Of a stretch of 64,000 bases of DNA, positions 1 through 59,304 are shown piece after piece. Location of the stretch: positions 1 through 64,000 of IMG/VR virus record IMGVR_UViG_3300042560_001323; one strand, given 5' to 3'. The position numbers and the translations under genes are program-made. Position 1 is the stretch's first letter. Each line of letters opens with the position of its first letter. Origin of the DNA: a virus. The notes beneath the pieces were generated by a model that did no database searches, had not been told where the DNA came from, and saw nothing but the letters and a program-made list of their open reading frames with translations.

Positions 1-462
1 GGCGGCAGACCCGGCGGCATTCCTGGCGGCAGACCAGGCGGCATAGTCTAGGGCGCGGTAGCGGCGGGCAACTTCTTTCCATTGGTCGGCAGTAAGACTA
101 TCCATGAACCACCAGAAGTTAAGGACCGCCCGGTAGTTCTTGCCGATGTATTTCTTGGGATTGGTTAGAACATCAGACGGGGCTCCAGGTTCACCATCGT
201 TAATTCTGCGAAGAAGAACCGAATGTGCAACTGAAATACCGAGCAGTCGGGCAACTTCTTGGTCGGCTTTAGATTGTTCGGTGTTGCGGAGCTGTTCCTC
301 GCTATAACCGCCAATCTTGTATAGTACCTGACCTTGAGCACACATACAGGTTGTTGGTTCTTTACCATCTTTAGGTGGTTCACTGGAGATAAGACTATTC
401 TTAAAGGGGATGTTGCGGGGATCTTCCCAGAAAGCCAGAAGTGTTTCGGCTGCGGTGTTCAT
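1..462 (-). CDS. LGPNY-family Ala-repeat protein, cut by window edge
   Basis: N-terminal 154 codons of a paralogue whose C-terminus lies outside the window. It begins [15 protein letters not shown], has a [15 protein letters not shown] segment, the core [18 protein letters not shown], and enters the AAxx array. The readable part appears base-for-base the same as 4330-4791, so this is a very recent duplicate. The start is the ATG at 460-462, downstream of promoter module 489-548. Function unknown. Confidence 0.8.
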   Translation of the reverse strand, partial: MNTAAETLLAFWEDPRNIPFKNSLISSEPPKDGKEPTTCMCAQGQVLYKIGGYSEEQLRNTEQSKADQEVARLLGISVAHSVLLRRINDGEPGAPSDVLTNPKKYIGKNYRAVLNFWWFMDSLTADQWKEVARRYRALDYAAWSAARNAAGSAA

Positions 463-488
463 TGGTGGTTGTTGCGGTTGACTTTTGA

Positions 489-548
489 AGTTTAGGCTAT
501 GGGTTGGGGCAGTTGAGCGTTGCTAGTGCCAGTTGCTCAAGTGTCCAC
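489..548 (-). promoter_or_regulatory. promoter module for the CDS at 1-462
   Basis: -10 TAAACT (489-494), 31-nt gap, palindrome 526-548 overlapping the stop codon of the upstream gene. This is one of about 37 such modules; see the findings. Confidence 0.6.
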
Positions 549-4092: not shown

Positions 4093-4151
4093 ATTATACA
4101 GGATGGGTTGGAGTATCACCGCTCCTATTGTGCCAGTTAATCAACCGGCCG
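4093..4151 (-). promoter_or_regulatory. promoter module with consensus -10
   Basis: -10 TATAAT (4093-4098, perfect consensus), 31-nt gap, palindrome 4130-4151. Reads into the 3872, 3609 and 3364 genes. Confidence 0.65.
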
Positions 4152-4791
4152 CAAAACCTTCAAACATCGGCACAAAAACGGGATTCTCAATACCACCAAT
4201 TAGTTCCCAGGCGGCAGACCCGGCGGCATCCCAGGCGGCATCCCCGGCGGCATACCCGGCGGCATCCCAGGCGGCATCCCAGGCGGCAGACCCGGCGGCA
4301 TTCCTGGCGGCAGACCCGGCGGCATCCCTGGCGGCAGACCCGGCGGCATTCCTGGCGGCAGACCAGGCGGCATAGTCTAGGGCGCGGTAGCGGCGGGCAA
4401 CTTCTTTCCATTGGTCGGCAGTAAGACTATCCATGAACCACCAGAAGTTAAGGACCGCCCGGTAGTTCTTGCCGATGTATTTCTTGGGATTGGTTAGAAC
4501 ATCAGACGGGGCTCCAGGTTCACCATCGTTAATTCTGCGAAGAAGAACCGAATGTGCAACTGAAATACCGAGCAGTCGGGCAACTTCTTGGTCGGCTTTA
4601 GATTGTTCGGTGTTGCGGAGCTGTTCCTCGCTATAACCGCCAATCTTGTATAGTACCTGACCTTGAGCACACATACAGGTTGTTGGTTCTTTACCATCTT
4701 TAGGTGGTTCACTGGAGATAAGACTATTCTTAAAGGGGATGTTGCGGGGATCTTCCCAGAAAGCCAGAAGTGTTTCGGCTGCGGTGTTCAT
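4141..4791 (-). CDS. LGPNY-family Ala-repeat protein, 216 aa
   Basis: First intact member of a tandem trio. Residues 1-100 are the N-terminal domain specific to this subfamily ([32 protein letters not shown]). Then comes the family core ([25 protein letters not shown]), then 14 tetrapeptide units of the form AA[WRG][SNDY], and a short C-terminal cap ([18 protein letters not shown]). The array is encoded by a 12-bp repeat whose bases 7 and 10 vary and whose other bases barely change. Function unknown. Confidence 0.8.
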
Positions 4792-4818
4792 TGGTGTTGT
4801 TGAGCAGATGACTTTGTT

Positions 4819-4877
4819 AGTTTAGGCTATGGGTTGGGGCAGTTGAGCGTTGCTAGTGCCAGTTAATCAACCGGCCA
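4819..4877 (-). promoter_or_regulatory. promoter module for 4141-4791
   Basis: -10 TAAACT (4819-4824), 31-nt gap, palindrome 4856-4877. Confidence 0.6.
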
Positions 4878-5505
4878 CAAAACCTTCAAACAATGGCACG
4901 AAAACTGGATTATCAATACCGCCAATTAGTTCCCAAGTGGCAGACCAGGCGGCATCCCTGGCGGCATCCCTGGCGGCATACTTGGCGGCAATCCCGGCGG
5001 CATTCCCGGCGGCATTCCTGGCGGCATACCAGGCGGCAGACCCGGCGGCATTCCTGGCGGCATACCAGGCGGCAGACCCGGCGGCATAGTCTAGGGCGCG
5101 GTAGCGGCGGGCAACTTCTTTCCATTGGTCGGCAGTAAGACCATCCATGAACCACCAGAAGTTAAGGACCGCCCGGTAGTTCTTGCCGATGTATTTCTTG
5201 GGATTGGTTAGAACATCAGACGGGGCTCCCGGTTGGCCGTCGTTGATTAAGCGGAGCAGAACTGAATGGGCAACTGAAATACCGAGCAGTCGGGCAACTT
5301 CTTGGTCGGCTTTAGATTGTTCGGTGTTGCGGAGCTGTTCCTCGCTATAACCGCCAATCTTGTATAGTACCTGACCTTGAGCACACATACAGGTTGTTGG
5401 TTCTTTACCATCTTTAGGTGGTTCACTGGAGATAAGACTATTCTTAAAGGGGATGTTGCGGGGATCTTCCCAGAAAGCCAGAAGTGTTTCGGCTGCGGTG
5501 TTCAT
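4867..5505 (-). CDS. LGPNY-family Ala-repeat protein, 212 aa
   Basis: Second member of the tandem trio. The N-terminal domain is almost identical to that of 4141-4791, but the array differs (12 units, including rare AAGI and AAKY). Most differences between these paralogues are in the array, which suggests that the flanks are homogenised while the array drifts or is diversified. Confidence 0.8.
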
Positions 5506-5532: not shown

Positions 5533-5592
5533 AGTTTAGGCTATGGGTTGGGGCAGTTGAGCGTTGCTAGTGCCAGTTAATCAACCGGCCAC
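5533..5592 (-). promoter_or_regulatory. promoter module for 4867-5505
   Basis: -10 TAAACT (5533-5538), 31-nt gap, palindrome 5570-5592. Confidence 0.6.
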
Positions 5593-6171
5593 AAAACCTT
5601 CAAACAATGGCACGAAAACTGGATTATCAATACCGCCAATTAGTTCCCAAGTGGCAGACCAGGCGGCATCCCTGGCGGCATCCCTGGCGGCATCCCAGGC
5701 GGCAATCCCGGCGGCAATCCCGGCGGCATTCCAGGCGGCAGACCAGGCGGCGGAATCTAGGGCGCGGTAGCGGCGAGCAACCTCTTCCCATTGGTCAGCG
5801 GTAAGACTATCTATAAACCGCCAAAACTTCATAACCGCATGGTAGTTCTCTCCTAGGTATTTCTCGGGATTTGTCAAAACATCAGACGGTGCTCCAGGTT
5901 CACCATCGTTAATTCTGCGAAGAAGAACCGAATGTGCAACTGAAATACCTAGCAGTCTGGCAACTTCGCGGTCTGCCTTAGTCTGTTCGGTGCTGCGAAG
6001 TTCCTCTTCACTATAACCGCCAATCTTGTATAGTACCTGTCCCTGAGCACACATACAGGTTGTTGGCTCTTCACCATCTTTAGGTGGTTCACTGGAGATA
6101 AGACTATTCTTAAAGGGGATGTTCCGGGGTTCTTTCCAGAAGGCCAGAATAGTTTCGGCTGCGGTGTTCAT
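5581..6171 (-). CDS. LGPNY-family Ala-repeat protein, 196 aa
   Basis: Third and most diverged member of the trio (for example [17 protein letters not shown] in the core). It has only 8 AAxx units, the shortest array in the window. Confidence 0.8.
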
Positions 6172-9471: not shown

Positions 9472-10113
9472 TCAATCTCTCCCTTTCGCAAGAAACATTC
9501 GGTCAAAAATCATAAACGGCAATTCACCATTTTCGGAGCCAAGATTCTTCTCTACAAACTCAATGATAAGAGCCTGCATCACCTCGGCATACCTTTCGTG
9601 GGATTCAATATACTTAATTGCTTCTGGTACGAGTGCAGTTGCAATAGCATCAAGAGTTTTAGACTCTAGAGCATTAAGAGTAATTTGTTTTGGTTCAGGA
9701 TTTACGAGTTCAATTTTTACAATGTCATGTTGATAACTTTTCCATAAATTAGTGCCATTTTGATTGTAAGATAGGTTACAGCGGTCAAAATAAAATTTGT
9801 AGCAATTTCCCCTAAGTTGTAACCGGCCAGTATGTGTGTTGCCATTTTTAAGAATGACTTTCACTTCTTTGTTGCCATACGGTGAAAGATCAATATTCAT
9901 TGGTTGTTCAGGATTTACGAGTTCAATTTTTACAATATCAAAATGACTGTTATTCCATAAATTAGTGCCATTTCCAAAGTAAGAGTAGTGACATTTGCCA
10001 AAATAAAAGTTGTAGTAATTTCCCCTAAGTTGTAACCTGCCAGTATGTGTGTTGCCATTTTTAAGAATGACTTTCACTTCTTTGTTGCCATACGGTGAAA
10101 GATCAATATTCAT
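9472..10113 (-). CDS. protein with duplicated Sm-like domain, 213 aa
   Basis: Two near-identical tandem copies of about 72 residues, each starting MNIDLSPYGNKEVKVILKNG and containing THTGRLQLRGN, then a helical C-terminal region (TLDAIATALVPEAIKYIESH). The V-x-LKNG-x(4)-G-x-L pattern resembles the Sm/Hfq fold, so RNA binding is possible but unproven. The start is the first repeat's ATG, because the longer frame runs back through the -10 at 10138-10143. Confidence 0.65.
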   Translation of the reverse strand: MNIDLSPYGNKEVKVILKNGNTHTGRLQLRGNYYNFYFGKCHYSYFGNGTNLWNNSHFDIVKIELVNPEQPMNIDLSPYGNKEVKVILKNGNTHTGRLQLRGNCYKFYFDRCNLSYNQNGTNLWKSYQHDIVKIELVNPEPKQITLNALESKTLDAIATALVPEAIKYIESHERYAEVMQALIIEFVEKNLGSENGELPFMIFDRMFLAKGRD

Positions 10114-10137
10114 TGGTTGTTCAGGATTAACTATTAA

Positions 10138-10195
10138 ATGATAGCATGATCTTAGAATGGTTAGAGAACCTGGGTGCCAGTTGTTCAAGCGGCAC
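10138..10195 (-). promoter_or_regulatory. promoter module for 9472-10113
   Basis: -10 TATCAT (10138-10143), 30-nt gap, palindrome 10174-10195. Confidence 0.6.
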
Positions 10196-10559
10196 ATTCA
10201 AAAAGTGGAAGCATAACAATATGCTCACCATCTTCAATAAGTTTGTGCATACAAATCAGTTCGTGAGTTGCCCAGGCTATTGCTATTCTCATAGTGTGAT
10301 GTAAAACTTCAGTTGCCTCAAAAACTTCGTGCCAAATATAAGCCTCATTAGTTAAAACTTTATTGGTATATTCAATAAGGCGAGTTCCATAATAGTCATA
10401 AGTATTTTCAAATTCTAAGAATCTTTCCGTAATAAGTTTTTCTTCTTCTGAACCAAGATCCTCTACAAATGACCAAAAATTAAACACCGCCTCATAATTT
10501 GGGCCAAGTGCTTTTTCTGGGTTATCAATATAACTTTGCTGAAGTTGGAACAATGTCAT
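10185..10559 (-). CDS. diverged LGPNY-family protein, 124 aa
   Basis: NPEKALGPNYEAVFNFWSFV marks the family core, and ATHELICMHKLIEDGEHIVM the family C-terminus. The middle lacks the AAxx array and carries ordinary helical sequence. Function unknown. Confidence 0.75.
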   Translation of the reverse strand: MTLFQLQQSYIDNPEKALGPNYEAVFNFWSFVEDLGSEEEKLITERFLEFENTYDYYGTRLIEYTNKVLTNEAYIWHEVFEATEVLHHTMRIAIAWATHELICMHKLIEDGEHIVMLPLFECAA

Positions 10560-10806: not shown

Positions 10807-11202
10807 TTAGGTTTTATCCAAACCAGAAAAAAGAGGAACGAACAACAAAGTCTTACCGGCATTCAATAAAGTGTGCATACCAATTAGTTCATAAGTTGCA
10901 TACCCGGCGGCATCCCTGGCGGCATACCAGGCGGCATTCCTGGCGGCATCCCTGGCGGCAGACCAGGCGGCATCCCCGGCGGCATACCCGGCGGCATACC
11001 TGGCGGCATCCCAGGCGGCATCGTCTAGGGCATCATAACGGCGGGCAACTTCATACCATTGGTTCTCGGTAAGACCGTCCATAAACCACCAGAAGTTAAG
11101 GACGGTTTCGTAGTTTGGTCCTAGAAAATTCTGTGGATTTTTTAGGGCTTCAGGGTTTTGAAGGCGGTTGGAGAAGTTTTGGTGGGCTTTTGAGTAATTC
11201 AC
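10807..11202 (-). CDS. LGPNY-family Ala-repeat protein, 131 aa
   Basis: Short-form member: [20 protein letters not shown], core [27 protein letters not shown], 10 AAxx units, and the cap [24 protein letters not shown] overlap with the upstream gene. Confidence 0.8.
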
Positions 11203-16315: not shown

Positions 16316-16722
16316 AGGTCTTTGAGGTATTTAACAAAGAAAGGGGGCAAATCTTTTTTCAAAAGTTCGTGCATAACTAACAACTCGAGTGTTATCCAAC
16401 CCATTAAAAAATCAAATCCATTTCGTGGTGAAATTTCTTTGTCTTCACATGCACCAATAACATTATCCCATATATCGTCTCCAAATTCATATTTTTCAGT
16501 TTCAACGAATTCATTAACGTGTTTATATCCTTGTGCTCTTATTTCATAAATGGTTTCTTCGTAGTCTGTTCCCATTATTCTTGCTTGTTCACAATTCATT
16601 CCATCAACAAACCACCAGAAGTTCAAGATGGTTTCGTAGTTTGGGCCAAGATACTTTTATGGTTCTTCAATAATATCTGGATAATTTTCAGAAATTTTAA
16701 GGTGAATAGTGGAGTAGTTCAT
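16312..16722 (-). pseudogene. LGPNY-family gene with in-frame TAA
   Basis: Begins at ATG 16720-16722, which overlaps the upstream stop as ATGA, with [20 protein letters not shown] then P-TAA-KYLGPNYETILNFWWF. Paralogues have NPEKYLGPNY here, so one G-to-T change (GAA to TAA, near 16659) explains it. The remaining frame is open to 16312 and ends in the family cap (TLELLVMHELL). Confidence 0.7.
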
Positions 16723-17141
16723 AAGTCGTTAAAAAGAGGAACGAACAACAAAGTCTTACCAGCATTCAATAAAGTGTGCATACCAATTAGTTCATAAGTT
16801 GCATACCCGGCGGCATTCCTGGCGGCATACGCGGCGGCATCCCAGGCGGCATACGCGGCGGCATCCCAGGCGGCATCCCAGGCGGCATTCCTGGCGGCAT
16901 ACCCGGCGGCAGACCCGGCGGCATCCCTGGCGGCATACCAGGCGGCATCCCTGGCGGCATCGTCTAGGGCACGGTAGCGGCGGGCAACTTCATTCCATTG
17001 GTCGGCAGTAAGACCATCCATGAACCACCAGAAGTTAAGGACGGTTTCGTAGTTTGGTCCTAGAAAGTCTTGTGGACTTGTAAGAGCTTCAGGGTTTTGA
17101 AGTTCGTTGAAGAAGTTTTGGTGGGCTTTTGAGTAATTCAC
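16719..17141 (-). CDS. LGPNY-family Ala-repeat protein, 140 aa
   Basis: [20 protein letters not shown], core [20 protein letters not shown], 13 AAxx units including two AAAY units, and cap [24 protein letters not shown] overlaps with both neighbours. Confidence 0.8.
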
Positions 17142-17602
17142 TTTTGTTGCTCCACTTTAGAATCATTGAAATATTCCTGTTGAATCTTATCGCCAACAAG
17201 CAATCCAAATCCCCCACATAAAAGAGCAACAATAAGAACAATGCTATATTCCCTACTATTTTTGAGGCTCAAGAGTTCTTTAGAGGTTTTCGTTAATATT
17301 TTGGTTGCAAACCGGGCGCTACTAATACCAAATAAAAACGTCAAAAAGTATGGCGTATAAAATACAAAAAGCCATATAAAAATTCCCAATCCAATTAAGG
17401 TAAATGGCCCCGAGGGGCCATCGGCAATCGGACTTTGAATAGATTGTGAAGAAACTTCACGAATGTTTCGGATTTTATCTGGGGTAACGTGATAGATATT
17501 GCAAATTTGTTCTGTTACGCCATTATAACTGCTGGAGTTAATTTCTACAGTTTGCAGCCCAGAATTGCTCCCGAGCCAAACGTCTGCTTTATATTGTGCC
17601 AT
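17138..17602 (-). CDS. membrane protein, 154 aa
   Basis: [20 protein letters not shown] soluble N-domain (about 60 residues), then two hydrophobic segments around residues 67-95 and 122-140. Start at 17602, since 17638 adds residues that overlap the upstream gene. Not recognised. Confidence 0.55.
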   Translation of the reverse strand: MAQYKADVWLGSNSGLQTVEINSSSYNGVTEQICNIYHVTPDKIRNIREVSSQSIQSPIADGPSGPFTLIGLGIFIWLFVFYTPYFLTFLFGISSARFATKILTKTSKELLSLKNSREYSIVLIVALLCGGFGLLVGDKIQQEYFNDSKVEQQK

Positions 17603-18029
17603 CGTTAAAAAGAGGAACGAACAATAAGTCCTTACCATCGTCCAAAAGCGTGTGCATACTCATTAATTCCCAAGTGGCATCCCAGGCGGCATCCCCAGCG
17701 GCATTCCCAGCGGCATTCCCAGCGGCATTCCCAGCGGCATTCCCGGCGGCATCCCAGGCGGCATCCCCAGCGGCATACCAGGCGGCAGACCCGGCGGCAT
17801 CCCAGGCGGCATACCCGGCGGCATCCCTGGCGGCATTCCTGGCGGCAGAGTCTAGGGCACGGTAGCGGCGGGCAACTTCATTCCATTGGTCGGCAGTAAG
17901 ACCATCCATGAACCACCAGAAGTTAAGGACGGTTTCGTAGTTTGGTCCTAGAAAGTCTTGTGGACTTGTAAGAGCTTCAGGGTTTTGAAGTTCGTTGGAG
18001 AATTTTTGATGGGCTTTTGAGTAATTCAC
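17589..18029 (-). CDS. LGPNY-family Ala-repeat protein, 146 aa
   Basis: GTG start at 18027-18029 overlapping the upstream TAG. Same core as 16719-17141. Array of 14 AAxx units with a run of four identical AAGN units, a sign of very recent unit duplication. Cap [20 protein letters not shown]. Confidence 0.8.
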
Positions 18030-20551: not shown

Positions 20552-21969
20552 TCATTGTGACATTTCAATTTCAACTCCAATAAGAAAAGCAGCAAGTTGT
20601 TGCTTCATTTCTTCCAAGGCATCTGAATCATTGCGATTCTGCTTTAGATAATCCTCGAGCAAGTCAATAATGGGATAAATGTCTTCTGCAGTTGGAACAT
20701 CGTTAGATGCCCCCATTACATCAACAGTGCCATCATTGAAGTAGAACGGATCCCGATACTTATCTTGCCAAGTATCACGATATTCCCAATCTTCCCCATC
20801 ATTGATGCTATATACTTCATTATGATACCCATCATTGATGCCATATACTTCATTATGATACTCTTGATAAGAATTGTAAGTCTTTTTGGTTACAGGATTT
20901 TGCCTTGCTGGGGGAAGTTTCTTGAGAATGTTGCTCGTTGCAGCACGAACAGCCTGGCCACCCTTGAAACCATAGGTAACAGGAGTAGAGAAGTCAACAT
21001 ACTTGAGTACATTCTCGTGAAAGGTTACACCTTCTACGGGAGTTGCATCAATTAGATTATCATAATGGAGTTTGAAGCGGCGATTGTTACCAGTAACACT
21101 GGCAGCAATTTCGTACTTCATAGTCTTGGTATTAATCTTACCCACAGTAAGATGAATTCCAGGATCGCCTAGCTCATACTTATCATCAACGCCCGAGAAA
21201 AAGGCATTCATCGTATTCGTTTTGTTACCACACAAATTGATAAATTTGTGGGGTTAGGTCATTTCTGCCTAACTCTATGACTTTCACCATAGACCGGACT
21301 ATACCATACATAGAAGTATTTATCTATGCCCTCGGGTCTAGTCTCTGAACGCTCCCCATTTAAGGGTATCCGCTGCTGATTGCCCATTGTAATCCCCGAA
21401 CTTTTCAAACCATCACGCTTGTCGTTTCCAACTACGTTGTGGTATCAGGGCTTTAGGGTGTTCCAGCAATTTACCGAGGTTTTACTCGCACCACACAATT
21501 AATGCGAGTGGCTAGAACCTACAGGAACCCACCCTTCAGGAGGATAAGACGTAAATTCTTCGCCAGTAACAAGGTCGACACACTCATCAAAGTTATCAGC
21601 CTTGACGCTTGCGGCTGTTACTTTCTGTTTGGGAACAACTGCACGATATTGAGAAGGATTGGAAGCATTACGCAAGAAGCGAATAGATACTTCCATCTGT
21701 GAAGGAACCTTGTCTACAAAGTAGAAACAAAGTTTAATCCAACTGGACCAAAGATCAGCCGGAACGCGATGAATATCCTCCCTAACTTCAAAATGCCCAA
21801 GATGTTCTTTAGTAATGACAATGTTAGCCTCGGGGTCTGAGCAAGGTCGCAGATAACTAACCCACGGGCCTTTATAGACTTCCCAGGTTCCATCATCCGG
21901 TGTTCGTAGAATAGAAGGTGGAGCTTCAACCTTTGGAGATTCTTCAATTGTGAGAGTTTCTTCGGTCAT
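20552..21969 (-). CDS. JAB/JAMM deubiquitinase-like peptidase, split by a group I intron
   Basis: Exon 1 is 21502-21969 (from ATG, MTEETLTIEESPKVEAP) and ends with codons for GSSHSH. Exon 2 is 20552-21217 and begins NTMNAFFSGVDDKYELG. Joining them gives 377 residues with the complete metal site H-S-H-x7-S-x2-D. The likely motif glutamate lies in SQMEVSIRFLRN upstream. This zinc peptidase would cleave or process the ubiquitin-like partner. Unspliced message stops at TAA, the first intron codon. Near the C-terminus a YHNEVY-x-INDG unit is duplicated. Homologous to PRTRC-A proteins by motif and context. Confidence 0.85.
21218..21501 (-). other. group I self-splicing intron, 284 nt, no ORF
   Basis: The 5' splice site follows the U of CAU. 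The exon end ACUCGCAU pairs over 8 positions with the internal guide GUGCGAGU (near 21480-21487), including the expected final U-G wobble. Core elements are visible: P near 21461-21471 (AATTGCTGGAA), R at 21337-21349 (TTCAGAGACTAGA) and S at 21296-21305 (GGTATAGTCC). R and S pair as GACTA/TAGTC to form P7. The intron ends in G (21218). No homing endonuclease is encoded inside. Confidence 0.9.
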
Positions 21970-22778: not shown

Positions 22779-23975
22779 ATGCACTTAAAAGCATACAAGT
22801 TCAGGATTTATCCAGATAAAGAACAAGAAGTTTTACTAGCGAAGACTTTCGGTTGTTGCAGGTTTGTCTGGAACAAACTAGTTGAAAACTTCAATAATCA
22901 GTCAAAAGAAGTAGTTACAGAAAAGACATTAAAAGACACTCCAGAATTTGAGTTTCTTAAAGAAGTTTCAGCTTCTACACTTCAACAAAAGAGAAATGAC
23001 TTTATTGAGTTCAAGAAACAGTTTTTCAATAAGAAAAGAAAGGCCAAATTAGGACGGCCTTCTTTTAAGAAGAAATCAAATCGTCAGTCTTTTAGACTTC
23101 CCAATCAAAAGTTCAAGTTAGACCAAGAAAATTCAGTGGTTAGACTGGAGAAAATTGGTTGGGTTAAAGTTATTATTGACCGCGAAATCCCCGAAGATGC
23201 CGATTTTAGGAACATTACCGTTTCCAAAACTCCTACTGGTAAATATTTTGCTTCTATCCTAATCAAACAAGAACTCAATCCAATACCCTCTACTAGCAAG
23301 GTAGTAGGTATTGATTTGGGTATTAAAGACTTGTTCATTCTTTCAAATGGTCAAGTTATCAACAACCCCAAGTGGTTTCGCAAGAACCAAGCGAAACTTA
23401 AAAAAGCCCAGAAACATTTAAGTCGGAAAAAGAAGGGAAGTAATCGGTATAACCAGCAACGAATTAAAGTTGCTAAAGTACACGAATTCATTACTAATTC
23501 CCGAAATTACTTCCTTCATAACGTGTCTACTGCTTTAGTGAACACTTTTGATTTGATAGTTCTTGAAGACTTGAATGTTTCTGGAATGCTAAAGAACCGT
23601 AAATTAGCGAAATCCATTAGCGATGCCTCGTGGTCTACTTTTGTTACTATGTTGGAGTACAAGTGCAACTGGTATGGTAAAGTCTTGGTTAAGATTAACC
23701 GCTTCTTTCCTTCTAGTAAGACTTGTAGTTCTTGTGGACATAAGCAAGACAAGATGCCTCTTTCGGTTAGAGAATGGACTTGCCCCTCTTGCGGCTCAAA
23801 ACACGATAGAGATTTAAATGCCTCTATCAACATCTTAAAGGAAGGTTGGCGCAGTCTAACCGACCAAGAACTTTCATCTGCAGAGTATGCAGATTACGGG
23901 CGTGGAGCGGAATTAAGACTGAGCGGTGATTTTCACCCTTTAGCATCTGCTGTGAAGCGTTTAGGAAATCAATAG
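22779..23975 (+). CDS. tnpB: TnpB RNA-guided nuclease, 398 aa
   Basis: Full-length, with N-terminal OrfB helix-turn-helix region (MHLKAYKFRIYPDKEQE), RuvC aspartate in GIDLGIKDLFILSNG (about 178), glutamate in IVLEDLNVSGM, zinc knuckles CSSCGHK and CPSCGSKHDRD with the last catalytic aspartate, and LSSAEYADYGRGAELRL at the end. The family cuts DNA guided by an RNA made from the element's right end and the flanking sequence, and so favours retention of the element. Confidence 0.9.
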   Translation: MHLKAYKFRIYPDKEQEVLLAKTFGCCRFVWNKLVENFNNQSKEVVTEKTLKDTPEFEFLKEVSASTLQQKRNDFIEFKKQFFNKKRKAKLGRPSFKKKSNRQSFRLPNQKFKLDQENSVVRLEKIGWVKVIIDREIPEDADFRNITVSKTPTGKYFASILIKQELNPIPSTSKVVGIDLGIKDLFILSNGQVINNPKWFRKNQAKLKKAQKHLSRKKKGSNRYNQQRIKVAKVHEFITNSRNYFLHNVSTALVNTFDLIVLEDLNVSGMLKNRKLAKSISDASWSTFVTMLEYKCNWYGKVLVKINRFFPSSKTCSSCGHKQDKMPLSVREWTCPSCGSKHDRDLNASINILKEGWRSLTDQELSSAEYADYGRGAELRLSGDFHPLASAVKRLGNQ

Positions 23976-24008: not shown

Positions 24009-24135
24009 CAAGCCAGGACCAAAAGTTTAAAACTGTTTTATAATTTGGCCCCATAAGGCTCTCAGGTTGAGCTATAGCAGCATTATCACCACCAAAATGA
24101 TTATTAAAGTTTTGATGCGATTTAGAGTAGTTCAT
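24009..24135 (-). pseudogene. LGPNY-family gene truncated by TnpB insertion
   Basis: [20 protein letters not shown], core LMGPNYKTVLNFWSWLDS, then the element's right end. No matching C-terminal part was found on the far side of the element, so insertion was accompanied or followed by deletion. Confidence 0.7.
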
Positions 24136-24542
24136 AAGTCGGCAAAAAGAGGAACGAACAATAAGTCCTTACCATCGTCCAAAAGCGTGTGCATACCCAT
24201 TAGTTCATAAGTGGCATACCAGGCGGCATTCCTGGCGGCATACCCGGCGGCATACCCGGCGGCATACCCGGCGGCATCCCAGGCGGCATACCCGGCGGCA
24301 TCCCGGGCGGCATTCCTGGCGGCATACCCGGCGGCATCCCTGGCGGCATACCCGGCGGCATAGTCTAGGGCACGGTAGCGGCGGGCAACTTCATTCCATT
24401 GGTTGGCAGTAAGACCATCCGTAAACCACCAGAAGTTAAGGACGGTTTCGTAGTTTGGTCCTAGAAAGTCTTGTGGACTTGTAAGAGCTTCAGGGTTTTG
24501 AAGTTCGTTGGAGAATTTTTGATGGGCTTTTGAGTGTTTCAT
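24132..24542 (-). CDS. LGPNY-family Ala-repeat protein, 136 aa
   Basis: [20 protein letters not shown], 12 AAxx units, cap [20 protein letters not shown]. From residue 10 on it is identical to 36265-36675 although the two are 12 kb apart, which means recent duplication or gene conversion. Confidence 0.8.
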
Positions 24543-31027: not shown

Positions 31028-32224
31028 ATGCACTTAAAAGCATACAAGTTCAGGATTTATCCAAATAAAGAGCAGGAATTTATACTGGCAAAGACCTTCG
31101 GTTGTTGCAGGTTTGTTTGGAACAAACTCGTTGAAAACTTCAACAGTAACTCTAAGGAATTTATTAACGAAAAGACATTAAAAGACACTCCCGAATTTGA
31201 GTTTCTTAAAGAAGTTTCTGCTGCCGCCATTCAAGGAAAAAGAAGAGATTTTGACGAGTTCAAAAAACAGTTCTTTAACAAGAAAAGAAAGAAAAAACTA
31301 GGGAGACCCAAATACAAGAAAAAATCAAATCGGCAGTCTTTTGGATTACCCAATCAGAAGTTCAAGTTAGACCAAGAAAAGTCTTTACTAAGATTGGAGA
31401 AAATTGGTTGGGTTAAAGTTGTTATTGACCGTGAAATCCCGGAGGATGCAGATTTCAGGATCATCACGGTTTCTAAAACTCCAACAGGAAAGTATTTTGT
31501 TTCTATTCTGGTTAAGCAAGAACTCAATCCAATACCCTCTACTGGTAAGGTAGTAGGTATTGATTTGGGTATTAAAGACTTGTTCATTTTAAGTAATGGT
31601 CAAGCAATTAACAACCCCAAGTGGTTTCGCAAGAACCAAGCGAAACTCAAAAAAGCCCAGAAACATTTAAGCCGCAAGAAAAAAGGTAGTAATGGGTATA
31701 ACCGTCAACGAATTAAAGTTGCTGAAATACACGAATTCATTACTAATTCCCGAAATTACTTCCTTCATAGCGTGTCTACTGCTTTAGTGAACACTTTTGA
31801 TGTAATTTCGGTTGAAGACCTTAATGTTTCTGGAATGTTGAAGAACCGCAAGTTATCTAAATCAATCTCGGATGCTTCTTGGTCTACTTTTGTTACTATG
31901 TTGGAATACAAGTGCAATTGGTATGGTAAAGTCTTAGTTAAGATTAACCGATTCTTTCCTTCTAGTAAGACTTGTAGTTCTTGTGGTCATAAAGAAGACA
32001 AGATGCAGCTTTCGGTTAGGGAATGGACTTGTCCTTCTTGTGGTTCTCAACACGATAGAGACTTAAATGCCTCTATCAACATCTTAAAGGAAGGTTGGCG
32101 CGGTCTAACCGACCAAGAACTTTCATCGGCGGAGTACGTCGATTACGGACGTGGAGCGGAATTAAGACTAAATGGTGAAAATCATCATTTAGCATCTGCT
32201 ATGAAACTTCTAGAGAATCAATAG
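31028..32224 (+). CDS. tnpB: TnpB RNA-guided nuclease, 398 aa
   Basis: Intact, about as long as and closely similar to the copy at 22779, with GIDLGIKDLFILSNG, VEDLNVSGM (Val for Leu beside the glutamate), CSSCGHK, CPSCGSQHDRDLNAS. Most differences from copy B are scattered, so both copies may be active. Confidence 0.9.
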   Translation: MHLKAYKFRIYPNKEQEFILAKTFGCCRFVWNKLVENFNSNSKEFINEKTLKDTPEFEFLKEVSAAAIQGKRRDFDEFKKQFFNKKRKKKLGRPKYKKKSNRQSFGLPNQKFKLDQEKSLLRLEKIGWVKVVIDREIPEDADFRIITVSKTPTGKYFVSILVKQELNPIPSTGKVVGIDLGIKDLFILSNGQAINNPKWFRKNQAKLKKAQKHLSRKKKGSNGYNRQRIKVAEIHEFITNSRNYFLHSVSTALVNTFDVISVEDLNVSGMLKNRKLSKSISDASWSTFVTMLEYKCNWYGKVLVKINRFFPSSKTCSSCGHKEDKMQLSVREWTCPSCGSQHDRDLNASINILKEGWRGLTDQELSSAEYVDYGRGAELRLNGENHHLASAMKLLENQ

Positions 32225-32250: not shown

Positions 32251-32838
32251 CTATGATAGCAATTTTGCAGTTTGGTACATTTCATCCAGTTTACGTTGCC
32301 GCTGTATAAGATGAAAGAAGAACCTCAAAGTGTTAAATGCATCATCTGCGGCTCGGTGTGGATTGCCAATAAAAGACAATTTATGTTTACCCATTGAAGC
32401 CCGCAATCCACCGGAAAGTGCCCGACCATTTGCCGCCTCAATAAAGAGAAAAAAGTGTTTTACATCTATAAATCGTCTACCAAAATATGGAAAGTGGATG
32501 CCATTATTTTTAAACTCATCAAGAAGTTCATTAGAATCACCTACTCCCCATTGGACCGCATTGACAAATGGCTTATGGGTGTCAATAAGATTTGATAGCC
32601 ATTCAGCGGCTTCTTGAAGTTCTACTCCACCGTCAACATCTTCTTGTGTAATTCCTGTAATTTCGGTTGTTCTGGGGTGAAGCGGCTTTTTGATTTTAAT
32701 AAGTTTGGAGTCTTTCAGAAAAATATTACCAGGAGAACCAATAGCAATACCCACTTCACATATTTCATCAGTTTGTTGACCATTTGTATTAAGTTCCAAA
32801 TCCAAGGATAAATAATTAATATCGCGCAAATTGTTCAT
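32251..32838 (-). CDS. DEDDh 3'-5' exonuclease, 195 aa
   Basis: YLSLDLELNTNGQQTDEICE holds the D-x-E site. GVGDSNELLDEF and HRAADDAFNTLRFF supply the later aspartates and the H-x4-D histidine. DnaQ/RNase T superfamily. The stop codon (TAG, 32251-32253) and one base of the last codon are part of the TnpB right end, so the natural C-terminus has been replaced by the insertion. Confidence 0.75.
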   Translation of the reverse strand: MNNLRDINYLSLDLELNTNGQQTDEICEVGIAIGSPGNIFLKDSKLIKIKKPLHPRTTEITGITQEDVDGGVELQEAAEWLSNLIDTHKPFVNAVQWGVGDSNELLDEFKNNGIHFPYFGRRFIDVKHFFLFIEAANGRALSGGLRASMGKHKLSFIGNPHRAADDAFNTLRFFFHLIQRQRKLDEMYQTAKLLS

Positions 32839-33233
32839 AAGTCGTTAAAAAGAGGAACAAACAATAAGTCCTTACCATCGTCCAAAAGCGTGTGCATACC
32901 AATTAGTTCATAAGTGGCATTCCTGGCGGCATACCCGGCGGCAGACCAGGCGGCATCCCAGGCGGCAGACCCGGCGGCATCCCAGGCGGCATCCCTGGCG
33001 GCATCCCTGGCGGCATTCCTGGCGGCAGACCCGGCGGCATACCAGGCGGCATAGTCTAGGGCACGGTAGCGGCGGGCAACTTCATTCCATTGGTTGGCAG
33101 TAAGACTATCCATGAACCACCAGAAGTTAAGGACGGTTTCGTAGTTTGGTCCTAGAAAGTCTTGTGGACTTGTAAGAGCTTCAGGGTTTTGAAGTTCGTT
33201 GGAGAATTTTTGATGGGCTTTTGAGTAGTTCAT
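32835..33233 (-). CDS. LGPNY-family Ala-repeat protein, 132 aa
   Basis: [20 protein letters not shown], standard core, 11 AAxx units, cap [24 protein letters not shown] overlap with the exonuclease gene. Start at the family ATG at 33233. Confidence 0.8.
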
Positions 33234-33235
33234 AT

Positions 33236-33745
33236 TCAGAGCCAATTCGGTTTGCGTTGAGGAGATTTAACGTAGTTATCGTGAATCCAAGGCTTTGTTG
33301 CAAGATACATTTTATATGCAGTGAATGTATCAATTGTTTTATCAAACTTCAACTCATCTGGCATTGCACGTTCAAATGGTGTAAATTTATCGAGATTGCC
33401 GTTGGGAAATATTTCAAGTGCCCGAAGAAGAGTATCATAACAAGCATGTTTCTTATTGTATCTACGCTCAAATTCTTCGCAGAGCATAAACCCATGATAA
33501 ATTAACCAATGGGCATTATGAATAGAGCGCGATGCCCAGATAGTGCAAGGATGCTTAAGATGTGGGTTCTTTTTGGTTGAATATGAAGTGCCGTCCTTTT
33601 TAGGGAGTGCGCCATAATTATGAAACCAAGGCGATGCAATATATGCGAGCATCTGACAACACTCAACTGGCATCTTGTTAATATGAAGATCTGGGAGCAC
33701 AATGGCGCTCTGTTCGGGGCAAGAAGATGTTGCAAAGATGTTCAT
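33236..33745 (-). CDS. conserved phage protein of unknown function, 169 aa
   Basis: MNIFATSSCPEQSAIVLPDL, then HINKMPVECCQML, KHPCTIWASRSIHNAHWLIY and TPFERAMPDELK. This set of motifs is familiar from a conserved protein of T4-like and other large phages. His, Cys and Trp are strongly conserved, which suggests an enzyme, but I do not know its activity. Confidence 0.65.
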   Translation of the reverse strand: MNIFATSSCPEQSAIVLPDLHINKMPVECCQMLAYIASPWFHNYGALPKKDGTSYSTKKNPHLKHPCTIWASRSIHNAHWLIYHGFMLCEEFERRYNKKHACYDTLLRALEIFPNGNLDKFTPFERAMPDELKFDKTIDTFTAYKMYLATKPWIHDNYVKSPQRKPNWL

Positions 33746-35867: not shown

Positions 35868-36268
35868 TAAAAAGAAAGCATAGGAATAAAAATTAATTCT
35901 TCGCCTTTATCAAGAATAGTTTGTAGGGCAATTAGTTCAAGAGTGACTGGTGCAGGAATGCTTGGAAACTTTCCTATAATATTTCTAACGAGGCTTCTAG
36001 ATGCACTTGCGGCAGTAGCTCGTCTGCCCCAATCTAATAATTCTTCAACATGATCAACGATCTCACAATATCTATTACTATATTGCATTTGTTTTAAACT
36101 ATACTTACCTTCAAGTTCTAATAGTTGTTCTTTTGTCAACGTTTCAAGATACCACCAAAAGTTAAGGACTGCTTCATAGTTTGGTCCTAGATAATTTTCA
36201 GGATTATCATATACTTCGTGAGTGCCATTGCGCTCAGCAAGATCTTGATGGGCTTTAGAGTAATTCAT
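35867..36268 (-). CDS. diverged LGPNY-family protein, 133 aa
   Basis: NPENYLGPNYEAVLNFWWYL core, then AATAASASRSLVRNIIG in place of the array (a possible eroded array), cap APVTLELIALQTILDKGEEL. Confidence 0.75.
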   Translation of the reverse strand: MNYSKAHQDLAERNGTHEVYDNPENYLGPNYEAVLNFWWYLETLTKEQLLELEGKYSLKQMQYSNRYCEIVDHVEELLDWGRRATAASASRSLVRNIIGKFPSIPAPVTLELIALQTILDKGEELIFIPMLSF

Positions 36269-36675
36269 AAGTCGGCAAAAAGAGGAACGAACAATAAGTC
36301 CTTACCATCGTCCAAAAGCGTGTGCATACCCATTAGTTCATAAGTGGCATACCAGGCGGCATTCCTGGCGGCATACCCGGCGGCATACCCGGCGGCATAC
36401 CCGGCGGCATCCCAGGCGGCATACCCGGCGGCATCCCGGGCGGCATTCCTGGCGGCATACCCGGCGGCATCCCTGGCGGCATACCCGGCGGCATAGTCTA
36501 GGGCACGGTAGCGGCGGGCAACTTCATTCCATTGGTTGGCAGTAAGACCATCCGTAAACCACCAGAAGTTAAGGACGGTTTCGTAGTTTGGTCCTAGAAA
36601 GTCTTGTGGACTTGTAAGAGCTTCAGGGTTTTGAAGTTCGTTGGAGAAGTTTTGATGGGCTTTTGAGTGGTTCAT
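36265..36675 (-). CDS. LGPNY-family Ala-repeat protein, 136 aa
   Basis: Near-perfect copy of 24132-24542, differing only in the first nine residues (MNHSKAHQN). 12 AAxx units in the same order. ATGA overlap with 35867-36268. Confidence 0.8.
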
Positions 36676-36677
36676 AT

Positions 36678-37154
36678 TCAGATACAATAAAGTTCAAGTT
36701 CAAATTCACGGTCTTTCAAGTTTTTAATTTTTTGAAGAACCTCCTGGCGATGATTTTCAAATCCCGAAATCCAAAAAACTCCCTCAAACGTTTCTACAAA
36801 ATTGGGATAATTTTTCCACTCTTTTTCTACATATTCATCAAACTCTTTTTCACCTTTCCAATGAACTCTATCAATAATAACTCCTTCTTCTAGCATTTTA
36901 AAAAATGATTCTTTAGTCCAGCCACTGTTGTTGCTTTCAGTGAAGATAATTCTATCTTCTATCTGAAAATCAATAGTTTTATTCCACTCAAAATATGCCC
37001 CAATTTGGGCATCGAAAGTTGGAATAGACATAATTGAGTCTGTTACAGTGGTTGGTGTCTGCCAAAAAATGTCGTGCCGTTCTACTTGTTCTTCAGGCTC
37101 ACCCGAAGGTAGAGTAACAATTCTGGTTGCCAAAAGATAAAGGTTGAAACTCAT
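36678..37154 (-). CDS. hypothetical protein, 158 aa
   Basis: MSFNLYLLATRIVTLPSGEP, acidic, Trp- and Phe-rich C-terminal half (FEGVFWISGFENHRQEVLQK). Not recognised. Start at 37154, close to the promoter. Confidence 0.6.
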   Translation of the reverse strand: MSFNLYLLATRIVTLPSGEPEEQVERHDIFWQTPTTVTDSIMSIPTFDAQIGAYFEWNKTIDFQIEDRIIFTESNNSGWTKESFFKMLEEGVIIDRVHWKGEKEFDEYVEKEWKNYPNFVETFEGVFWISGFENHRQEVLQKIKNLKDREFELELYCI

Positions 37155-37255: not shown

Positions 37256-38548
37256 TTATTCTGGCCCAGAGAGACGTTCTACTCCACCCATATATGGAAT
37301 CAATGCGGTAGGTAAGGTAACACTACCATCACTTTGTTGTCCATATTCTAATATTGCTGCCATTGTGCGACCAACCGCTAGACCGCTACCATTAAGAGTG
37401 TGTAACAATTGAACATTCTTGTTATCCCTAAAGCGAATAGATGAGCGGTTAGCCTGAAAATCAGTACAAGTGCTACAACTAGAAATCTCGCGGTAAGTAC
37501 CGGCGCCAGCCATCCAGACCTCTAAATCATAAGTGCGAGCAGCAGAAAATCCTAAATCTCCGCCACATAGTTCCATACGGCGATAAGGTAATTCTAGCGC
37601 CTCTAATATACCTTCAGCATCGCGGGTAAGCTGTTCGTGAGCTTCCAACGATTTTTCAGGATGACAGAACCAATACAACTCAACTTTATTAAACTGATGT
37701 AAGCGAATTAAACCTCTTGTATCTCTTCCATAAGAACCAGCCTCACGACGGAAGCAGGGTGTATGCGCCACATATTTTAAGGGTAGGCGATCTATATTAA
37801 TGATCTCGTCACGATGTAGGGCAGTGATAGGAACCTCGGCCGTGGGAGTAAGCCATAGATCATCGTCAGCACACTTAAAACTTTCATCCGCAAATTTGGG
37901 GAGTTGTCCAGAACCAGTCAGACTTGTGCTATTTACTAAAATTGGTGGCATAACCTCTTTATAACCATTGCCAGTATGACGATCTAGCATAAAAGAAATC
38001 AAAGCCCTTTCTAATTTAGCCCCTTGTCCTAATAAAGTCACAAAACGACTTTGTGCAATACGCACGGAACGTTCAACGTCAAGCAAACCCAAACGTTCAG
38101 CAATCTGCCAGTGTTCTTGTAAGGTTTCTCCAAGATTTGGTTTGCGGAGACTACCCCATACTTTCACTATTACATTGTCATCTTCTCCACTGCCGGTTGG
38201 AACTTGAGGATACGGTAAGTTGGGTATAGTGAGCAGTTGTTCTTGTAATTTCTGCTGTAGGCCATTCTCTTCTGCTATAAGATCGCTAACTTGTTGTTTA
38301 ATAGAACTTCCCCTCTCACGCAATTTTTGCAACTCTGGCTCATCACGATTAACTCCAAGTTGGACTTGTTGACCAATTTCTTTACCGATTGAATTACCTT
38401 CGGCTTGTAATTTTTCTCGTTTTTGTTGTATATCTTTTTCAGCAGTTGCAAGTTTTTGCAACTCTTTTAAGTCAATCTCTAATCCGCGAAGAGTCAATAA
38501 ATCACTAATAACTTTGGGGTTTTCGCGTAACATACGATAATTGAGCAT
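37256..38548 (-). CDS. serS: seryl-tRNA synthetase, 430 aa
   Basis: Complete class II enzyme of normal length. N-terminal coiled-coil arm (about 30-105) for tRNA-Ser, motif 2 with FRREAGSYGRDTRGLIRLHQ, and motif 3 GSGLAVGRTMAAILEYGQQ. Attaches serine to tRNA-Ser. Unusual in a phage-like context; likely taken from a cyanobacterial host. No tRNA-Ser gene was seen in the window. Confidence 0.9.
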   Translation of the reverse strand: MLNYRMLRENPKVISDLLTLRGLEIDLKELQKLATAEKDIQQKREKLQAEGNSIGKEIGQQVQLGVNRDEPELQKLRERGSSIKQQVSDLIAEENGLQQKLQEQLLTIPNLPYPQVPTGSGEDDNVIVKVWGSLRKPNLGETLQEHWQIAERLGLLDVERSVRIAQSRFVTLLGQGAKLERALISFMLDRHTGNGYKEVMPPILVNSTSLTGSGQLPKFADESFKCADDDLWLTPTAEVPITALHRDEIINIDRLPLKYVAHTPCFRREAGSYGRDTRGLIRLHQFNKVELYWFCHPEKSLEAHEQLTRDAEGILEALELPYRRMELCGGDLGFSAARTYDLEVWMAGAGTYREISSCSTCTDFQANRSSIRFRDNKNVQLLHTLNGSGLAVGRTMAAILEYGQQSDGSVTLPTALIPYMGGVERLSGPE

Positions 38549-39220: not shown

Positions 39221-39399
39221 TGTTTTCCTCCAGATTGCGATCGTAAGTCCCGTTCCTTCGGGCGGCAGTTCAGTTTTTAAGATTCTACTCTTAAAAATGA
39301 ACCTCGTCGTCCTACTTGCGTCCACTATTTACAAATAGAGGATGAACGAAAGAAGTTTGCACCTCTTACAACTTATGTAGCATAAAATTATCCACTAAC

Positions 39400-41033: not shown

Positions 41034-41294
41034 TCAACGGTAATAAAAATAACGCAGTTCATCTAGAACCACTTTGGTTCCTTCTTTTGTTGTAATGATT
41101 TGTTCTGGAATCTGAAGATTCAAATGCTTATTGGCAGTTTTCATCCAATGTTGCATATTGGATTTATCCCCACCACACATTGAGTGAAGATACTTATAGA
41201 TGCGAATAAAGTCCAAATCATCATACCATTCGGTAAGATTCAAAATAGTTCCTGCTTTTTGGGAAGATTGTTTAATAAAATCAAAGTCGTTCAT
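41034..41294 (-). CDS. hypothetical protein, 86 aa
   Basis: [20 protein letters not shown] to VVLDELRYFYYR. Next to the RlaP-like gene and ATGA-coupled to the family gene upstream. Not recognised. Confidence 0.55.
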   Translation of the reverse strand: MNDFDFIKQSSQKAGTILNLTEWYDDLDFIRIYKYLHSMCGGDKSNMQHWMKTANKHLNLQIPEQIITTKEGTKVVLDELRYFYYR

Positions 41295-41779
41295 AAGTCG
41301 TTAAAAAGAGGAACGAACAACAAAGTCTTACCAGCATTCAATAAAGTGTGCATACCAATTAGTTCATAAGTGGCATTCCTGGCGGCATCCCTGGCGGCAT
41401 ACCAGGCGGCATACCAGGCGGCATTCCTGGCGGCATCCCTGGCGGCATACCAGGCGGCATCCCAGGCGGCATTCCTGGCGGCATACCCGGCGGCAGACCC
41501 GGCGGCATCCCTGGCGGCATACCCGGCGGCAGACCCGGCGGCATAGTCTAGGGCACGGTAGCGGCGGGCAACTTCTTTCCATTGGTCGGCAGTAAGACCA
41601 TCCATGAACCACCAGAAGTTAAGGACGGTTTCGTAGTTTGGTCCTAGAAAGTCTTGTGGACTTGTAAGAGCTTCAGGGTTTTGAAGTTCGTTGGAGAATT
41701 TTTGATGGGCTTTTGAGTAGTTCACAGGTCTTTCTTTAGGAAACAGAAAGTCGGTTATTTTATTGAAGAAGTTTGACAT
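41291..41779 (-). CDS. LGPNY-family Ala-repeat protein with fused N-terminus, 162 aa
   Basis: Begins [19 protein letters not shown], a leader almost the same as the start of 42174-42428 (MNLFNKINDFLFPKKEPI), then joins the family at [14 protein letters not shown]. 14 AAxx units, cap [20 protein letters not shown]. The fusion shows one gene start being copied onto another gene. Confidence 0.75.
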
Positions 41780-56988: not shown

Positions 56989-59304
56989 TCAGAAAGTGAC
57001 CCTGTTCCTGACGGTTTCAAAGTCTACAAGATTGTGTAACTGTCCATTTTCAAAGACAGTTTGAAGAGCAATCGGATAATCCAATGCACCTTCAACATCT
57101 GTTACAAAACCATTTTCTGTCTTATAAAGGGTTACACGACCTTTCTTGGATTCCTTACCGAAATCTGTGATTGGTTGCTTGTAAACATCTCGCCATTCAC
57201 CATTGACTCTTGCGGCAGAACATTTCATTGCAAACTTTAAGGTATCCCTATCAACTTGCTGAAGAAGTCCACCGCCTTGACCGAAGGTGATATTATCTGC
57301 CGAGAATCCTGCCGTGGTTGCACGATAGAGAATTCGGTCAATTGTTGCCTGGTTAATGCCATCACCTTGAATAACACTAACATTGTTAAGAACTTTATAG
57401 CCCTTATCGTTGATGGTATGCCCAAAGTGTTCGTCAAGAATTTGTAGGCATTCGGTTACAACTTGTGGGGGATGACCAGAGTTTCCGGTAACCATTATAC
57501 ATCTATTTCTCTTAACCAAAATCATTCCGGTTGGAACTTTTACGCAATGCACTGTTCCCTTATACATTACTTTAGTTTTGGAAATAGATTGTCCGCCAAC
57601 AAAAGGATTATCTAGAATATGGGCAGTATAGACATCGGAAAAATATTCTTTTCTTTTATCTTCTGATTTTGAAATTAGTATTCCTTTTCCGGCGGAAATT
57701 GCTATATACTCAACAATATCAATGTTTTCTTTGACCGTGGTATCATATTTAAATCTACCTCCATCCCTAATAGTTGAATCCCAGTGCTTTAATTCTTCAA
57801 TAAATTGTTCACACCAAAGACTATCTAAGTTTGAGATATCTACCCAGTTAAAAGTTTTTGAAATAACTTCATTCGAGTTAACCGGAATTCTAATGCAAAT
57901 TGTAGATTGACCTCCTCTAGAATTTAGATAATAAATTTTATACTCGTATTCTAAATGATTGAGAATGGTTAACAGTCTATCGTGCTTTCTTTCTTTTTGA
58001 AAGTTGAACTCAATTATAATTGAAGAAGAATTAACCTTTTTAATACAACCATCAGCTTGCAGGGCGATTAAAAATCGTTCGTGCCAAGTCAATTGTTTAC
58101 CGTTTGTTTGAGATTTTGCCGCCCTTATTTTCTTATACTGATAATTGTTTTGTTTATACTCGGAAGCCTCTTTAATTTGTATTCCCCTTTCAGGATTAAT
58201 ATAAACCATTCTATGATTTGGTGTAACTAATAAATCTACTTTTCCGTGAAAATCACGAAATTCATACATTTCACCTTCATAAGGCTGATTTATGATTTCT
58301 AATGGCTTAACAAATTCGTAAGTTTGGTCTTCTTTTACTTGTGCAACTAAATCTTGATCAGTTAATTCGGTAAAAAACTTCCAACCCGATGGGGTTAAAA
58401 TTTGACTCTTACTATCCAGGCAATCTGGTCGAATTCCGATGACTGCACCAGAATTGATAACTTCATCTTTCAACTCTGTTCCCCAGAGTTTACTACAGGC
58501 ATCATAGATGTTGTAACTATCACTAACAGCGGCTAGAACTGCTCCAGGTTTACCGAAGAGTTTTAGCATATTGCGAAAAGCCTCAACCTCGTTTTCTCTA
58601 CCCCAAGATGTAACAGTGCTATGTTCCATAGCGGGAATAGAGAGCCCCGCCATCTTGGCATCATAATACCTTCTTGCATAGAGAAGGGCTGCTACGGTAT
58701 CAGTTCCTTTGAAGTTGACAAGATGGGCTGCTCCACCAATGCCAGCAGATTCATAAGAAGAGACTCCTCTCGATCCAAAATCGTGTAACTTGAAGTCAAT
58801 AAGTTCTGGAGTTCCCGTTTTATGAAGATACTCCAAGATAATTTTCTTACTTGTGTAAGAATTCGTACAGACTGTCGTTGGATACCATACCGCTCGTTGC
58901 AATGCCGCCTCCAAGAAAGAACTTAACCACCAGCACTTGGGGTTAGTTGGTTCAATCGTAACAAGAACATTCTTCGTTGGAACAACTGTTCCTTCTGGAA
59001 CTGCCTTGATTATAACTGGAAGCCAGCCATTATGCTCTTTGAGAATGTATTCCCAAAGTTCACGGTAGAATGGCTCACCGTGAGCAGTGATAATCTCGTC
59101 TGCAACATCAATGTCTTCTTGTGTGATTGGCTTAGACATATATTCCATGAGGAACATCTGTAAACCAAAGAACACAGTTTCATCCCATTTACCACCTCTA
59201 CTCTCAATGTAAGAGTAGACGCTTTCAGTTCCAGGAGGATACTGATAAGGTTGGGAATACTTGTAGGAATCAGCGTTGAGCAGAAGATTTTTAAAAAGGT
59301 CCAT
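56989..59304 (-). CDS. nampt: nicotinamide phosphoribosyltransferase with intein, 771 aa (457 after splicing)
   Basis: Makes NMN from nicotinamide and PRPP. The spliced protein has normal NAMPT length, with FGSRGVSSYESAGIGGAAHL, MAGLSIPAMEHSTVTSWG (catalytic His near 228) and, after splicing, GIRPD-SGHPPQVVTECL, the phosphate-binding RPDSG motif. The intein (residues 295-608) lies between that Asp and Ser, so no activity is expected before splicing. Strong AAGGAG and a special hairpin precede the start. With the NMN adenylyltransferase gene it completes nicotinamide to NAD+. Confidence 0.9.
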   Translation of the reverse strand: MDLFKNLLLNADSYKYSQPYQYPPGTESVYSYIESRGGKWDETVFFGLQMFLMEYMSKPITQEDIDVADEIITAHGEPFYRELWEYILKEHNGWLPVIIKAVPEGTVVPTKNVLVTIEPTNPKCWWLSSFLEAALQRAVWYPTTVCTNSYTSKKIILEYLHKTGTPELIDFKLHDFGSRGVSSYESAGIGGAAHLVNFKGTDTVAALLYARRYYDAKMAGLSIPAMEHSTVTSWGRENEVEAFRNMLKLFGKPGAVLAAVSDSYNIYDACSKLWGTELKDEVINSGAVIGIRPDCLDSKSQILTPSGWKFFTELTDQDLVAQVKEDQTYEFVKPLEIINQPYEGEMYEFRDFHGKVDLLVTPNHRMVYINPERGIQIKEASEYKQNNYQYKKIRAAKSQTNGKQLTWHERFLIALQADGCIKKVNSSSIIIEFNFQKERKHDRLLTILNHLEYEYKIYYLNSRGGQSTICIRIPVNSNEVISKTFNWVDISNLDSLWCEQFIEELKHWDSTIRDGGRFKYDTTVKENIDIVEYIAISAGKGILISKSEDKRKEYFSDVYTAHILDNPFVGGQSISKTKVMYKGTVHCVKVPTGMILVKRNRCIMVTGNSGHPPQVVTECLQILDEHFGHTINDKGYKVLNNVSVIQGDGINQATIDRILYRATTAGFSADNITFGQGGGLLQQVDRDTLKFAMKCSAARVNGEWRDVYKQPITDFGKESKKGRVTLYKTENGFVTDVEGALDYPIALQTVFENGQLHNLVDFETVRNRVTF
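57481..58422 (-). mobile_element. intein with LAGLIDADG-type endonuclease region
   Basis: 314 codons. Starts with Cys (CLDSKSQILTPSGWKFF), has block-B-like LLVTPNHRMVY, an endonuclease motif FLIALQADGCIK (about residues 411-422) and a weaker second one (EYIAISAGKGILI), and ends VTGN with Ser as first extein residue. Splicing residues are all present, so it is probably active. It inserts in the most conserved codons of the host gene. Confidence 0.9.

Follow-up and report, generated by a model that had tools for sequence, protein, structure and literature searches.

A phage protein family with 12-bp arrays encoding Ala-Ala-x-x units that probably turn over while a mixture of residues appears to be retained

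The window analyzed here spans the opening 64 kb of a virus record of 243,166 bp (IMGVR_UViG_3300042560_001323) and harbors ten complete array genes and one truncated gene, all of them on the minus strand. Their arrays consist of in-frame tandem 12-bp units, which in this record read GCC GCC NGG followed by NAT or TCT, and range from 8 to 14 units in the window and up to 16 elsewhere in the record. Three genes are of a long form: 4141-4791 (216 aa; array 4216-4371, 13 units), 4867-5505 (212 aa; array 4942-5085, 12 units) and 5581-6171 (196 aa; array 5656-5751, 8 units). The short-form genes are located at 10807-11202 (131 aa; array 10900-11019, 10 units), 16719-17141 (140 aa; array 16803-16958, 13 units), 17589-18029 (146 aa; array 17679-17846, 14 units), 24132-24542 (136 aa; array 24216-24359, 12 units), 32835-33245 (136 aa; array 32919-33050, 11 units), 36265-36687 (140 aa; array 36349-36492, 12 units, identical to the array of 24132-24542) and 41291-41779 (162 aa; array 41375-41542, 14 units). 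The truncated gene (1-522) is cut by the end of the record, with its frame open to base 1 and its array beginning near base 42.

Five further array genes lie outside the window, at record positions 81776, 109272, 111269, 144377 and 242550, bringing the total in the record to approximately 16; the gene at 4141-4791 served as the query (100%) in the search for these additional copies. Tandem Repeats Finder detected the arrays independently, and a two-unit pattern matched 90 times in the 243-kb record versus none for the reversed control pattern, indicating that the arrays are not the product of chance. These results confirm that the observation is real and that it extends well past the two genes named in an earlier sequence-only reading, which had placed a 12-bp tandem repeat at 4141-5092. 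The repeat itself is borne out by both ORFs (13 exact units in 4141-4791 and 12 in 4867-5505), but the proposed span leaves out the 5' part of the second gene. The 8 to 14 units given in that reading for the paralogues agree with the counts in the window, and the run of four AAGN units it described at 17589-18029 is present, with GCT as the second Ala codon in three of the four. The two ends of the record (window 1-522 and record 242550-243166) fall in near-identical array genes, with 300 of 300 bases shared before the array, suggesting that the assembly probably broke in the repeat and that the record is probably a piece of a larger or circular genome.

The proteins belong to a family that we designate here the CAQG-domain phage protein family. 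The long form presents, in order, an N-terminal domain with the motif C[ML]CAQGQ...ISxAHxxLLRxxND...GAP, an FWxxxD stretch, the array and a short C-terminus of the E-x-x-G...FxPxF type (EIQG or ELIG...FxPxF). Long-form window proteins can be aligned over the whole CAQG domain, which places them in the family, and the short-form genes lack the first half of that domain. Relatives were identified on at least 101 viral contigs and in 6 of 84,980 genomes. Some homologs lack a perfect array, which in two of them (L009 and L010) looks decayed, and two others (L012 and L076) carry a unique Ala-rich sequence at its place. These imperfect or replaced arrays indicate that the segment varies between conserved parts, and that the fold does not depend on the array. 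The family had no match among INPHARED phages, and one long-form protein had none among PLSDB plasmids, in BLAST searches that mask low-complexity sequence and in which the array itself is hence undetectable. Sequence searches of Pfam, NCBIfam and PDB returned no relatives, and the assignment of the N-terminal domain as a distant relative of DUF6197 found no support in Pfam. Matches of the window proteins to PHROG profiles are located at the core end and in the array, and have little bearing on homology. At the structural level, an uncharacterized protein of an uncultured Caudovirales phage (A0A6J7XDA0, BFVD) matches a window protein over its full length (E 5e-13, TM 0.72, 44% identity).

AlphaFold models suggest that the array forms a helical arm, an assignment that we hold moderately, and that this arm is probably a hairpin. 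The window protein (pLDDT 76.5) is predicted to contain helices at residues 125-149, 165-182 and 184-199, interrupted by a stretch of low confidence, and a homolog (L019, pLDDT 78.3) two long helices at 129-165 and 170-211, with confidence dropping inside the array; the low-confidence breaks of the models (150-163 and 186-196) fall in the arrays, and helix prediction for Ala-rich sequence is in itself weak evidence. Foldseek returned no PDB match with E below 1, and for the second model VIA-align listed a single weak hit, located in the array helices (5c8e, Z 3.1, rmsd 5.2, 52 aligned). The models are consistent with the constant Ala scaffold and variable face put forward in the sequence-only reading, provided that the predicted alpha-helical arm is correct.

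To describe the unit, we tallied base counts in all complete genes of the window (ten genes, 119 units). Positions 1-5, 9 and 12 are invariant, position 6 is C in 114 units and T in 5, and position 8 is G in 116 of 119, in agreement with the earlier statement that the six Ala bases and the GG are nearly fixed. Position 7 (G47, A36, T34, C2) likewise shows the reported A, G or T with rare C, and position 10 is T54, G39, A26 and C0. The two hypervariable bases of the sequence-only reading are thus recovered at positions 7 and 10, but position 11 (A98, C18, T3) also varies, through TAT, TCT and ATT, so that the variable bases are three. Pooled diversity is 0.67, 0.63 and 0.35 at positions 7, 10 and 11, respectively, and positions 7 and 10 are not, as would have spoken against that reading, as conserved as the third-codon sites of the 30 core codons preceding the array (0.16). 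The claim that they vary freely did not hold: position 7 is largely restricted to three of the four bases, position 10 is never C in the window, and the residues at x1 and x2 depend on each other, with a mutual information of 0.528 bits versus a shuffled mean of 0.116 (maximum 0.237 in 2000 shuffles). Of the 51 units with Arg (AGG) at x1, 47 have Asp or Asn at x2, and Tyr or Ser occupies x2 in 49 of the 65 with Gly (GGG); seven unit types account for 142 of the 171 units of the record. The units are a small alphabet rather than free variation, and the earlier interpretation is partly supported.

Comparison of paralogs and homologs revealed signs of unit turnover. Several sets of contigs with identical or near-identical flanks carry different arrays (L065-L067, L072/L078, L116/L117, L122/L123 and L080/L082), and others carry the same array (L014-L016, L104/L105 and L128/L129). 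In the record itself, the genes at 4141 and 242550 share 300 of 300 bases before arrays that differ, and the gene at 109272 contains one six-unit block twice. The longest repeated block inside arrays is 2.14, versus 1.43 in shuffled arrays (top of 200 shuffles, 1.86). Short-read assembly may distort array lengths, so that no turnover rates can be read from these comparisons and some length differences may be artifacts. Paralogs fall into different groups by their 5' and by their 3' flanks, those of 16719, 41291 and 111269 being identical on the 3' side and different on the 5' side, and blocks of up to 7 units are common to paralogs (shuffled maximum, 6). Both of the latter observations would also be expected if the DNA repeat were itself selected, as a recombination site for the exchange of gene halves among paralogs and related phages. 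We consider this quite improbable, since selection on the DNA repeat gives no reason for changes to alter amino acids and avoid silent sites, and arrays of identical units would be better substrates for recombination.

The distribution of changes within arrays points instead to the protein. Ala codons are nearly always uniform inside one array and differ from array to array, and the NGG codons for Trp, Arg and Gly are varied in every array. Among 40 CAQG-family arrays, picked by their N-terminal domain only and regardless of the array, position 7 is varied in all, position 3 is constant in 95% and position 6 in 88%. Within-array pooled pN/pS, which carries no simple error bar since unit pairs of one array are not independent, is 9.0 in this record (14 arrays, 171 units), 5.0 in the 40 CAQG-family arrays and 3.0 in 58 arrays of other families, the latter picked by a pattern that fixes NGG. 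In the same three sets, unit pairs that differ by one base do so nonsynonymously rather than synonymously in 90 versus 2, 162 versus 7 and 279 versus 10 cases. In a further array (L073), AGC GCA (Ser-Ala) takes the first two codons of all 17 units, and the NGG and GMC bases are still varied. These figures bear on the possibility that the segment is a neutral low-complexity spacer, built by slippage and mirroring the composition of its first few units. The variable unit number and the unrelated Ala-rich sequence found in its place in some homologs would fit such a spacer, but drift predicts at least as many silent as amino-acid differences, the opposite of what all three sets show, and many proteins that have no relation to each other show the same Trp/Arg/Gly alphabet alongside different Ala codons; a neutral spacer hence seems rather unlikely, although it retains some weight.

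The two Arg codons available at position 7 serve as a built-in control, by which targeted mutation and selection can be distinguished on sequence data only. Most arrays combine T, G and either A or C at this position, encoding Trp, Gly and Arg, yet AGG and CGG Arg codons occur together in only 3 of the 89 arrays with at least three AGG or CGG Arg units, versus approximately 77 (76.9) expected if they were independent. This exclusion argues for selection on the protein and against a mutator aimed at the base, which could not tell A from C, and suggests that selection maintains a varied mixture of residues. Targeted hypermutation, in which a diversity-generating retroelement, or an enzyme like it, edits every unit at positions 7 and 10/11, would account for the clustering of changes at the same bases in every array, and the adenine-free GCC GCC together with adenines at the variable positions of some units is compatible with it. 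It is strongly opposed by the A/C exclusion and was rejected as scarcely credible; in addition, some arrays use only CGG and have no A at position 7, and a search of the 243-kb record, which is possibly incomplete, identified no reverse transcriptase domain (PF00078), with positive controls.

Arrays of this type are not restricted to the CAQG family. Scanning IMG/VR for four consecutive GCNGCNNGGGMN units returned at least 120 stretches, and among the matches listed, 69 of 75 array frames from 80 loci, some of them cut by the end of the locus, lack the CAQG motif. The pattern (GCN GCN NGG GMN)n recurs in several phage proteins that are unrelated to each other, among them phrog_18326 and carriers of DUF7666, DUF6745 or DUF6197 domains, the last exemplified by L205. 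It is also present in isolated phages (Burkholderia phage Bcep176 gp36, Curvibacter phage P26059A_0094, Pseudomonas phage AF AF_046 and PPpW-3 ORF-54), and the arrays as such are therefore not a product of assembly. In the family of a Sphingobium locus, comprising 199 genomes, the pattern occurs only in that locus's own genome, and DNA related to an Erwinia phage gene was not found in E. coli genomes. Within what was searched, the arrays are nearly confined to phages. Searches of the open-licence literature with array peptides and descriptive terms found no description of such arrays, and the main text of a paper on Bcep176 infection (PMC12584637) makes no mention of gp36. Two loci deviate from the common pattern: a phage protein at L223:1344-2123 combines a short AAWD/AARD array with a longer, irregular stretch rich in Ala-Ala-Tyr-Asn, which is perhaps a second array type, and a Vibrio phage 367.14 relative of phrog_18326 (L292:2931-3680) carries AARS, AAWS and AESA units instead.

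The four isolate proteins are members of phrog_18326, which resembles the window proteins in presenting an Ala-Ala-x-x array with NGG codons after a conserved N-terminal domain, and in being encoded among small early or accessory genes. Its N-terminal domain (LDDALW...RLFAVWCARQVEHLM) is nevertheless different, and the window proteins match the profile only from position 106 on, over the core end and the array, which places them outside this group; L190, in contrast, matches over 2-201 of 203 profile positions. As in coding minisatellites (VNTRs), the units are in frame, are gained and lost, and are more alike within than between arrays, as judged by their Ala codons; unit number differs between close relatives, with the caveat of short-read assembly. 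Unlike in coding minisatellites, homogenization and amino-acid diversification affect neighboring bases of one 12-bp unit, and the same Trp/Arg/Gly alphabet appears in many unrelated phage proteins. Diversity-generating retroelements also vary amino acids at fixed positions on a constant phage-protein scaffold, but the variation here lies in a tandem array, follows no adenine rule and was found without a reverse transcriptase in the possibly incomplete 243-kb record. Instead of any base appearing at template adenines, the synonymous alternatives A and C are exclusive in 86 of 89 arrays, and CGG-only arrays exist. TAL effector repeats, which span approximately 34 residues and read DNA bases through a residue-pair code, offer an analogy only, in their near-identical units with two variable residues each; the units described here have 4 residues, the window proteins have no Pfam match, and the arrays are not known to bind a ligand.

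Together, unit turnover and amino-acid selection are well supported, and our preferred reading as a whole, with a probability of roughly 0.6, is that of an array homogenized by turnover, with a residue mixture kept by selection, in a helical arm. In this reading, conserved parts at the N-terminus and, over a short stretch, at the C-terminus flank an Ala-rich segment of variable length, predicted to be a helical arm and probably a hairpin, which in many members is made of tandem 12-bp Ala-Ala-x1-x2 units. Units would be gained, lost and swapped by slippage, unequal crossing-over and exchange between paralogs, and this turnover would homogenize silent sites and both Ala codons within an array; on the simplest reading, each unit type arose once per array and then spread by duplication. 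Selection at the protein level would keep x1 mixed among Trp, Arg and Gly, each one change apart in NGG, and x2 among Asn, Asp, Tyr and Ser here and Asp, Ala and Glu elsewhere. It speaks against this explanation that the three residues mixed at x1 have little chemistry in common, and that Lys, Ser and Ala are rare there despite being one mutation away. Selection could also act on composition and not on recognition, with Trp and Arg as cation-pi stickers and Gly and Ala as spacers in a scaffold that self-assembles or forms condensates. The near-zero net charge per unit in all sets (-0.02, -0.12 and -0.09) and the similar shares of Trp, Arg and Gly across sets are in line with this alternative, but the array presents an ordered 4-residue lattice and predicted helices, which are not typical of disordered sticker-spacer proteins, and we regard it as unlikely.

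As regards function, the genes neighboring the relatives encode transcriptional repressors, HNH endonucleases, DNA methyltransferases, a primase, a helicase and a single-strand annealing protein, each type in one to three of 80 neighbors, and the array genes of the isolates lie near repressors, ERF or RecT, an exonuclease and Lar. This context points to early, non-structural accessory genes. Under the preferred reading of turnover and selection, our likeliest guess is that the array would be a fast-changing binding or oligomerization module of such proteins; that these deal with a changing host partner is a tentative suggestion. It is a good deal more doubtful that the Ala-Ala-x1-x2 units constitute a portable recognition alphabet, in which each unit type would supply one contact along a helical rod, and phages would reshuffle the units of several early proteins, unrelated to one another, to keep pace with a changing host target, for instance a defense protein. 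If the preferred reading is correct, phages would own a widespread, quickly reshuffled and probably helical module on many uncharacterized proteins, missing as a module from protein-family libraries, whose target would be worth finding; Burkholderia phage Bcep176 and Pseudomonas phages AF and PPpW-3, which carry arrays, are already in culture.

Besides the array genes, the window contains tail fiber, nicotinamide phosphoribosyltransferase, RNA ligase and RlaP genes. The nicotinamide phosphoribosyltransferase gene (56989-59304) has its nearest named relative in Synechococcus phage B23 (62.7% over 60% of the query) and harbors an insert of approximately 300 residues that weakly matches an intein splicing domain. 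A group I intron was identified at 21275-21511 (Rfam RF00028, E 3.7e-11), and a glutamine riboswitch (glnA leader, Rfam RF01739) at 39247-39350, barely over the gathering score, would fit a cyanobacterial host. Two plus-strand ORFs of 398 codons (22779-23975 and 31028-32224) lie amid minus-strand genes, the first encoding an IS605 OrfB/TnpB-like protein. A complete seryl-tRNA synthetase-like gene is present at 37256-38548, and the ORF at 9472-10197 contains a 213-bp tandem duplication (9693-10128) whose copies are 89% alike.
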